A stretch of 64,000 nucleotides of DNA from Micromonospora peucetia. GTDB lineage: Bacteria > Actinomycetota > Actinomycetes > Mycobacteriales > Micromonosporaceae. The notes under the pieces are model-generated. The model was given only the letters and a program-made list of their open reading frames with translations. It was not told where the DNA came from and made no database searches. The stretch spans positions 3,906,001 through 3,970,000 of the forward strand of contig NZ_FMIC01000002.1 in the NCBI RefSeq assembly GCF_900091625.1, given 5' to 3'. Below, piece by piece: positions 15,543-49,563 of this stretch. How positions within the stretch are numbered: position 1 is the stretch's first letter; every line of letters begins with the position of its first letter. The position numbers and the translations under genes are program-made.

Positions 15543-15590
15543 CCCACCCCCTCCCCGCTCCACCCCGCCCTCGCCCTGCCCGCTCGTCCC

Positions 15591-15660
15591 GCCCCGCCCC
15601 GCCCCGCCCCGCCCCGCCCCGCCCCGCCCCGCCCCGCCCCGCCCCGCCCCGCCCCGCCCC
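15591..15660. repeat. 14 perfect tandem GCCCC units
   Basis: Seventy bases of uninterrupted GCCCC repeat. The minus strand is GGGGC repeated 14 times, a strong candidate for G-quadruplex formation. It begins 48 bp after the Rv2175c-like stop codon. Confidence 0.95.
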
Positions 15661-15740
15661 GCCGCCCGCCCCGGCCTGCCCCCAACCCGCTCCCGCCAAC
15701 CCGTCCCCGCCCCCGCTCCCGTCCCCGCCCCAGCCCCTCG

Positions 15741-15809
15741 CGATCTTGCACTTGATGCCCCGACATCTGGGGCGCATCGGACAAAATGCGGGCCGAAAGT
15801 GCAAGATCG
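15741..15809. repeat. 69-bp dispersed palindromic repeat, copy 1
   Basis: Perfect 13-bp terminal arms, CGATCTTGCACTT and its complement, enclose a variable centre. Copy 2 lies at 49438-49506 in the opposite orientation. Aligned, both are exactly 69 bp and share about 50 positions, in blocks CGATCTTGCACTT (1-13), GCCCCGACA (17-25), CATCG (35-39), GGGC (50-53) and GAAAGTGCAAGATCG (55-69). Both have a C-rich tract on the left and G-rich DNA on the right. Confidence 0.85.
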
Positions 15810-15817
15810 ACGGGACT

Positions 15818-15991
15818 AAGACCAAGACCAGGGCCAAGACCAGGGCCAAGACCAAGACCAAGACCAAGACCAGGGCCAAGACCAAGACCAGGGCCAAGAC
15901 CAAGACCAGGGCCAAGACCAGGGCCAAGACCAGGGCCAAGACCAGGGCCAAGACCAGGACCAAGGCCAGGACCAGGACCAGGGCCAAGGCC
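15818..15991. repeat. array of 29 hexamers of the form ARGRCC
   Basis: 174 bp made of 29 consecutive hexamers, mostly AAGACC and AGGGCC, with AGGACC and AAGGCC variants toward the right end. The reverse strand gives a long open frame of alternating Leu/Val/Ala, which is an artefact. No gene is seen anywhere in 15543-16076. G-rich sequence continues to the polyprenyl synthase stop. Confidence 0.9.
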
Positions 15992-16076
15992 GGGGACGAG
16001 CGGCTAGGGCCAGGGCCGAGCAGGGAGGGCCGGGCGCGGGCCAGGGCAGGGAGGGGTAGGTGCGGGCGGGGGTGGG

Positions 16077-30609: not shown

Positions 30610-30657
30610 GATCTTGGAGAGTTGCGGCCCCTCCCGGGGCCGAAATCTTCCAAGATC
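30610..30657. repeat. 48-bp imperfect palindrome before dnaE2
   Basis: Outer arms GATCTTGGA and TCCAAGATC (9 bp) and inner arms GGCCCC and GGGGCC (6 bp, loop TCCC) are separated by partly matched 7-base segments. It lies 30 bp before the dnaE2 start codon. It recalls the GATCTTGCA ends of the 69-bp element but differs in length. It may be a hairpin controlling dnaE2 expression relative to imuB. Confidence 0.65.
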
Positions 30658-49338: not shown

Positions 49339-49391
49339 GTAAGGAAGGGCCTTCTCCTGTCGTTCTTGGATAGGAGAAGGCCCTTCCTTAC
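49339..49391 (+). terminator. 20-bp perfect hairpin after leuS
   Basis: GTAAGGAAGGGCCTTCTCCT (49339-49358) and its exact complement (49372-49391) enclose 13 bases, starting seven bases past the leuS stop. The GGAAGGGCC core is also in the palindrome at 20587. Confidence 0.9.
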
Positions 49392-49437
49392 ACCCCGCCC
49401 GCCCACCCCTACCCCCGCCCAACCCCACCCGTGCCCG

Positions 49438-49506
49438 CGATCTTGCACTTTCCGCCCCTGAAATAGGCGATGAGCGGCTTTTGTCGGGGCGGAAAGTGCA
49501 AGATCG
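49438..49506. repeat. 69-bp dispersed palindromic repeat, copy 2
   Basis: Perfect 21-bp arms (49438-49458 and 49486-49506) begin CGATCTTGCACTTTCCG and enclose 27 bases. Inverted relative to copy 1 at 15741. Left flank is C-rich, right flank (49514-49562) is G-rich with GGGGTGG runs, as for copy 1. It lies between the leuS terminator and the stop of the convergent permease gene. Confidence 0.85.
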
Positions 49507-49563
49507 ACGCGTCGAGGTGGGGCGGGCGGGGTGGGGTGGGGTGGGCGGGGCGGGGTGGGGTGG

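Follow-up and report, generated by a model that had tools for sequence, protein, structure and literature searches.

Bacterial miniature inverted-repeat transposable elements (MITEs) such as NEMIS and ERIC are small, intergenic and palindromic and are inserted in some lineages, traits that are shared by the elements described here. In the system of repetitive extragenic palindromic (REP) sequences and REP-associated tyrosine transposases (RAYTs), paired inverted repeats are tied to a specific gene, according to the published account (PMC3116915). The antitoxin AbiEi is reported to repress its own promoter by occupying a pair of inverted 23-bp boxes, the 11-bp outer arms of which are conserved, and to bend the DNA; in a mycobacterial relative the boxes lie 10 bp further apart (PMC7319586, PMC3985639). 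The present study concerns a 69-bp palindromic element, termed family A, two copies of which lie in a stretch of 64,000 nucleotides of Micromonospora peucetia (contig NZ_FMIC01000002.1, positions 3,906,001 to 3,970,000; this whole stretch is referred to as the window), and the nuclease gene to which the element and its relatives are linked. We consider it probable that these elements are dispersed sites of the AbiEi-operator type which are read by a cognate nuclease fusion and have been spread by cutting and repair.

Copies and anatomy of the family-A element

The two copies have the coordinates, the length of 69 bp and the opposite orientation that a first-pass annotation of the window had assigned to them:

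15741..15809, + strand: family-A element copy 1, 69 bp, with 13-bp inverted ends, GCCC/GGGC boxes and three RCAWW blocks
49438..49506, - strand: family-A element copy 2, 69 bp, with the interior reversed relative to copy 1 and 21-bp perfect arms

Copy 1 and the reverse complement of copy 2 agree at 50 of 69 positions (46 in the direct register), in line with the approximately 50 matches given by the annotation, and its perfect outer arms of 13 bp in copy 1 and 21 bp in copy 2 were found as well. With up to two mismatches, the 13-mer end occurs six times in the window (0.30 expected), four of these being the ends of the two copies. The prediction of many genomic copies was borne out: exact 13-bp ends with a spacer of 28-58 bp occur 57 times in the source genome (7.37 Mb, two contigs) and not once in the reversed control, and the lengths are 69 or 70 bp; neither a restriction to the two window copies nor random lengths were observed. 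Our sample of the source genome, made up of 75 stretches around exact or near-match elements, five stretches from an element-poor part and the window (1.39 Mb), contained 95 end pairs, 75 with a length of 69 bp and 20 with one of 70 bp, of which 94 were retained as family-A elements after removal of one weak match, few mismatches being allowed. Lone ends were scarce in this sample: 13 were present at two mismatches and two at one mismatch at most, the latter being a duplicated arm and a likely chance match.

The 69-bp elements are of the GATCTTGCA type. Alignment of 45 oriented 69-mers revealed the succession of a 13-bp end, three variable bases, GCCC, CGRC, three RCAWW blocks, GGGC, three variable bases and the mirrored end, the C of the RCAWW blocks occupying positions 24, 33 and 42. 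The middle of the element, described earlier as two variable internal stretches, does vary, yet it is nonrandom, with RCAWW blocks 9 bp apart and the GCCC/GGGC boxes.

At position 11, which is C or G, the arm combinations of the 94 elements were 65 CG, 12 CC, 11 GG, 5 GC and 1 CA; pairing was 0.74 versus 0.70 expected. Because the two arms vary independently in the source genome, half-sites acting as double-stranded DNA are favored. An Rfam scan of the window gave no match above the gathering score. Copying of the flanks through a hairpin was considered and set aside as a slight effect (exact outward match of at least 10 bp in 5.8% of 173 cases versus 0.07% of cross pairs).

Three peculiarities of copy arrangement were seen. 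At L228:7911-8008 a family-A left arm stands immediately ahead of a complete element and is possibly the remnant of an element hit by another one; at L063:8055-8217 and L127:5671-5837 (source genome and Virgisporangium) two elements are adjacent at a spacing of exactly 25 bp; and among the matches listed, family-A copies are sparse at 4.2-6.8 Mb of G000:C2 compared with the rest of the chromosome.

The linked AbiEi-like/DUF559 gene

The first-pass annotation had advised to look for a linked Y1-type (RAYT) or other transposase. A linked enzyme was found, but of another kind: the gene product is modeled as an N-terminal AbiEi antitoxin-like part fused to a C-terminal Vsr/I-Bth0305I-like nuclease (DUF559). 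The assignment of a catalytic domain of the Vsr/I-Bth0305I type is based on Foldseek and VIA-align matches, which indicate likeness of fold, the function being putative; for single parts of the protein VIA-align also lists other folds (TnsA, MenT1). The domain is PD-(D/E)XK-like and not HUH, and its nuclease residues are invariant across 16 aligned proteins.

Pairs of same-family elements 850-1200 bp apart were present at 31 of 78 DUF559 loci (the best matches listed plus 20 chosen lower-scoring ones), including 28 of 50 in Micromonospora, and at none of 88 control loci (a gene which we take to be leuS, two site genes and Y1 transposases). The bracketing pairs are spaced about 1,020 bp around the DUF559 genes and, within Micromonospora, display 13 different end 9-mers. 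Among the 69 DUF559 loci with enough sequence, elements flanked the gene on both sides in 27, on one side in 16 and on neither side in 26 cases (other genes: 7 of 811). Apart from these genes, the fetched DNA of the source genome contained just one further pair of this kind, two family-A copies at a distance of 859 bp with a ROK-family gene between them (L061:7069-8063). Two of the six DUF559 paralogues of this genome, L410 and L412, have no flanking element; loss of their families, or divergence beyond the reach of the test, may be the reason.

The element ends change with the protein (protein identity versus end likeness: Mantel r -0.50, 0 of 5,000). In the protein tree the end types fall into groups, some of its rows being short. 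Copy number likewise follows the gene, with a median of 29 family-A copies in genomes with the orthologue (n=10) and of 1 in those without it (n=21). As predicted, the GATCATGCA family is represented by 22 copies each in G007 and G031, by one to three in six other genomes and by none in 23. Sequence comparison shows the bracketing and the match of both ends and copy number to the gene.

A Y1/RAYT enzyme as the mobilizer finds no support in the source genome, 22 relatives of the same genus and 14 others searched for PF01797: this domain is absent from the element-rich genomes G003 (33 copies), G017 (11) and G021 (10) and present in the element-free G009, G016 and G020. None of six Y1 loci was bracketed by elements.

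Insertion sites and strand-biased flanks

The empty sites in relatives for which the first-pass annotation had advised to look were found. In G025, the closest relative (flank nucleotide identity about 90-95%), seven sites had both sides aligned (two one-sided sites were not counted); the element is absent from all seven, and the flanking tracts are missing or much shorter there. At the copy-1 site G025 has a 90-bp gap, partly C-rich and then G-rich, without element. The site L074:6983 has both flanks in 28 of 30 relatives (two are without the right flank) and the element in none of the 28, with gaps of -23 to 127 bp. At the copy-1 site, 23 of 30 relatives with both flanks comprise one with family A, 11 with a palindrome that falls into the 55-bp class and has different GATC ends, and 11 empty ones; some element sites are common to several species. 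Copies are partly recent: 8 pairs share at least 80% of the interior, compared with an average of 0.4 in column shuffles, for which 75 69-mers were used, the observed set of 94 being somewhat larger. No target-site duplication was readable, as the flanking tracts mask the junctions. A larger co-moving unit was rejected, since the likeness of the flanks of close copies (8 pairs) stops within about 5-15 bp. The view of a REP/MITE-like dispersed element is upheld by the number of copies, by the sites found empty in relatives and by the linked enzyme, and inverted-repeat doublets are indeed dispersed in extragenic space; comparison of the sequences shows the insertion of an element at a new gene 3' end.

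The position of both window copies 3' of genes was reproduced, as each sits between convergent genes. According to the same simple codon-based gene caller, 50 of the 94 elements lie between convergent, 34 between tandem and 8 between divergent genes (2 unclear); 30 of the 34 in tandem pairs are closer to the upstream stop, and the interior orientation matches the gene direction in 16 of these 34.

On the + strand, DNA is C-rich to the left and G-rich to the right of the elements; 50 of the first 54 show the expected sign on both sides. In the window, this arrangement, also claimed by the annotation, holds on both sides of copy 2 (skew -0.37/+0.64) and to the left of copy 1 (-0.57), but not in the first 100 bp to its right, which consist of AG-rich repeats without G excess (-0.08):

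15543..15740, + strand: C-rich tract, including CCCCG repeats, that separates copy 1 from the stop of the left gene
15810..16076, + strand: purine-rich tandem-repeat tract to the right of copy 1, without G excess in the first 100 bp
49400..49437, + strand: C-rich tract to the left of copy 2
49507..49563, + strand: G-rich tract to the right of copy 2

A switch of the 100-bp skew from below -0.35 to above +0.35 occurs at 71 sites in the 1.39 Mb, 70 of them at family-A elements and the remaining one at another palindrome of the same superfamily; since the sampled stretches were mostly picked around elements, this count demonstrates specificity, not density. The opposite (G-to-C) switch occurs twice. 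The bias is present regardless of gene direction and fades over 150-200 bp; in tandem gene pairs it is similar on both sides, nearly as strong downstream as upstream (0.53/0.40, 0.42/0.39, 0.22/0.23, 0.11/0.10). Tandem repeats make up 24% of element flanks versus 1-2% of other intergenic DNA, and 74 other intergenic inverted repeats have no mean flank bias. The suggestion of an mRNA 3'-end structure is weakened by the independent arms at position 11, the 16 of 34 matching orientations and the symmetric bias in tandem pairs. Near copy 2, a separate hairpin at 49339-49391 (GTAAGGAAGGGCC...GGCCCTTCCTTAC) directly follows what is presumably leuS; a similar hairpin is located at the same place in G025, and it looks like an ordinary terminator-type repeat.

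The superfamily and its distribution

Family A is part of a superfamily characterized by inverted GATCWWGNRSTT half-sites. Of 150 Micromonosporaceae genomes, 61 contained the pattern GATCWWGNRSTT-N31..47-mirror, as did 20 of 44 genera, with up to 176 matches per genome and none in the reversed control. Class-wide, 25 of 384 genomes contained it; high numbers besides those of Micromonospora were restricted to genus g106 of family f34 (up to 54) and a single genome of f46 (16), and the many single matches may be due to chance. Other families in the fetched loci have different GATC ends; measured between the outer GATC motifs, they are 53-56 bp or 65-71 bp long. The flank bias of GATCATGA (21 elements) and GATCAAGA (8) equals that of family A; in GATCATGG (5 elements) and smaller groups it is weaker or one-sided. 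The window contains a member of a further family:

30610..30657, + strand: palindrome of 48 bp with GATC ends, from another family; the 21 bp on its right are identical to those of an element beside a different nuclease paralogue of this genome (L413)

Within Micromonospora, the copy number of family A ranges from 0 to 57. Spread of family A by phages was rejected, as no viral contig contained this family; the broad superfamily pattern matched 28 viral stretches, a number taken for near chance.

Proposed mechanism and alternative explanations

According to the explanation that we favor, the element would comprise two inverted half-sites with a conserved outer box of 12-13 bp. They are spaced by about 31 bp in the class of 53-56 bp and by about 41-47 bp in that of 65-71 bp, the total lengths being counted from GATC to GATC. 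The cognate AbiEi-like/DUF559 fusion would recognize the element as double-stranded DNA. In many genomes the nuclease gene is placed between two copies of its own element, about 1.0 kb apart, and binding to these would also control the gene itself. The nuclease would cut DNA at or beside bound elements, repair of the break would copy short stretches of DNA carrying an element to further intergenic positions, and the C-rich and G-rich repeat tracts would result from successive rounds of cleavage and repair next to bound elements. Binding is suggested by the element plan, which matches the AbiEi boxes, by the two spacing classes and by the phased AT blocks; cutting and nuclease-driven spread are what we infer, this account being preferred because of the insertions, the transcription-independent symmetry of the flanks and the conserved catalytic-type residues.

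Several observations weigh against this explanation. A flanking element is missing from 26 DUF559 loci (16 from other genera, 10 from Micromonospora), and family-A copies are present in the orthologue-free genomes G029 (25), G030 (19), G024 (10) and G021 (10), partly draft assemblies or relics; the counts of genomes and loci carry no phylogenetic correction, and the ten orthologue loci are not independent. The outside flanks suggest that the family-A gene is syntenic in the source genome, L087 and L078, and movement of the gene-bearing unit itself is hypothetical; flank homology between close copies (8 pairs) is lost within about 5-15 bp. Family f34 and the 48-bp family have a weak flank bias, and the model does not account for the sign of the C-to-G bias. 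As a short C-to-G stretch persists at the empty copy-1 site in G025 and G017, the bias may precede or outlast the element. Finally, a hairpin form of the elements is possible: in the mixed-species set (147 elements from other genomes), arm pairing exceeded chance at position 11 (0.71 versus 0.54 expected) and at positions 14, 15 and 18-20, which we put down to species differences, and the arms of short-class elements appeared correlated by eye.

Among the alternatives, domesticated regulatory or chromosome-structure sites come closest. In that case the fusion would be a DNA-bending marker of gene ends, its nuclease incidental, and the copies would serve the host, as the conserved ends with AT blocks phased by 9 bp, the placement at gene 3' ends and the positions common to several species might suggest; given the wide range of copy number within one genus, a sister species empty at all seven sites, different families at the same site and the invariant nuclease residues, we regard it as unlikely. 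If the element were a common MITE mobilized by a conventional transposase that escaped detection, with the nuclease genes riding along or sitting in hot spots, then inverted ends, a fixed length, recent copies and hot-spot insertion would equally be expected. No long autonomous element with family-A ends was found in the 1.39 Mb of source-genome DNA, the rest of the genome being covered by the pattern matches listed; same-family pairs at the spacing given above surround DUF559 genes with 13 different end 9-mers in Micromonospora and no control gene. We hold this idea to be improbable.

Two-way Rho-dependent terminators, in which C-rich RNA is followed by a roadblock in the same way from both sides, would agree with the order of C-rich DNA, element and G-rich DNA on both strands at gene 3' ends. 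This reading was rejected on account of the flank symmetry in tandem gene pairs, where the bias persists on the downstream side although no sense transcript approaches from there, and the other intergenic inverted repeats are without bias on average; what chance is left to it is very small. Hardly any is left to REP/RAYT (REPIN, paired REP sequences) proper, in which a Y1 tyrosine transposase mobilizes a hairpin of single-stranded DNA: the logic of paired inverted repeats tied to a specific gene is the same, and the mixed-species arms are paired above chance, but Y1_Tnp presence does not track the elements, position 11 is free of a pairing constraint in the source genome, and the linked gene is of another nuclease fold.

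Comparison with known systems

The elements are abundant and hitherto unexplained intergenic palindromes of actinobacteria, tied to the widespread DUF559 of unknown function, which here occurs with an AbiEi-like part, and sequence-matched pairs of protein and DNA are now on hand that can be tested directly. The palindrome families and their partner nuclease point to an undescribed way of DNA spread in bacterial genomes. A bolder version, somewhat less likely true than false in our judgment, is that an antitoxin-type repressor with a Vsr-like nuclease copies its own operators genome-wide, as a third route beside transposases and RAYTs, with subfamily-specific ends and with C-to-G tracts grown by cutting and repair. 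If the nuclease does drive the spread, DNA-binding parts of toxin-antitoxin systems would have been reused in a self-spreading system that resembles REP/RAYT but employs an unrelated enzyme. Cutting and repair would in that case have left the strand-biased repeat tracts as their footprint, and from the diverged families, a natural set for this purpose, DNA reading of the AbiEi type could be decoded. In the open-access literature, to which the search was confined, no paper on the elements or on DUF559 with dispersed repeats was found.

From the NEMIS and ERIC MITEs, the elements differ in that no transposase or target duplication was found and in that their interiors diverge while the ends are fixed. 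Unlike the EDxHD/Vsr-like homing endonucleases of the I-Bth0305I type, the fusion was seen without intron or intein, and the repeated DNA is its presumed binding site, dispersed in many copies. With REPIN/RAYT they share short inverted-repeat units in extragenic DNA and several families, each tied to a specific gene; an AbiEi-Vsr-like nuclease fusion, however, takes the place of the HUH Y1 enzyme, the half-sites behave as double-stranded DNA in the source genome, and near-fixed lengths (53-56 or 65-71 bp) and C-to-G flanking tracts are added. The layout also resembles that of the AbiEi operators of Streptococcus agalactiae abiE and Mycobacterium tuberculosis rv2827c: here, too, two inverted boxes with conserved outer arms lie next to a gene for an AbiEi-fold protein, their putative reader, and the spacing classes are about one helical turn apart. 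In contrast to these operators, up to 176 pattern matches are scattered over a single genome, a nuclease domain is part of the protein, and the unit of roughly 1 kb fits one gene only.
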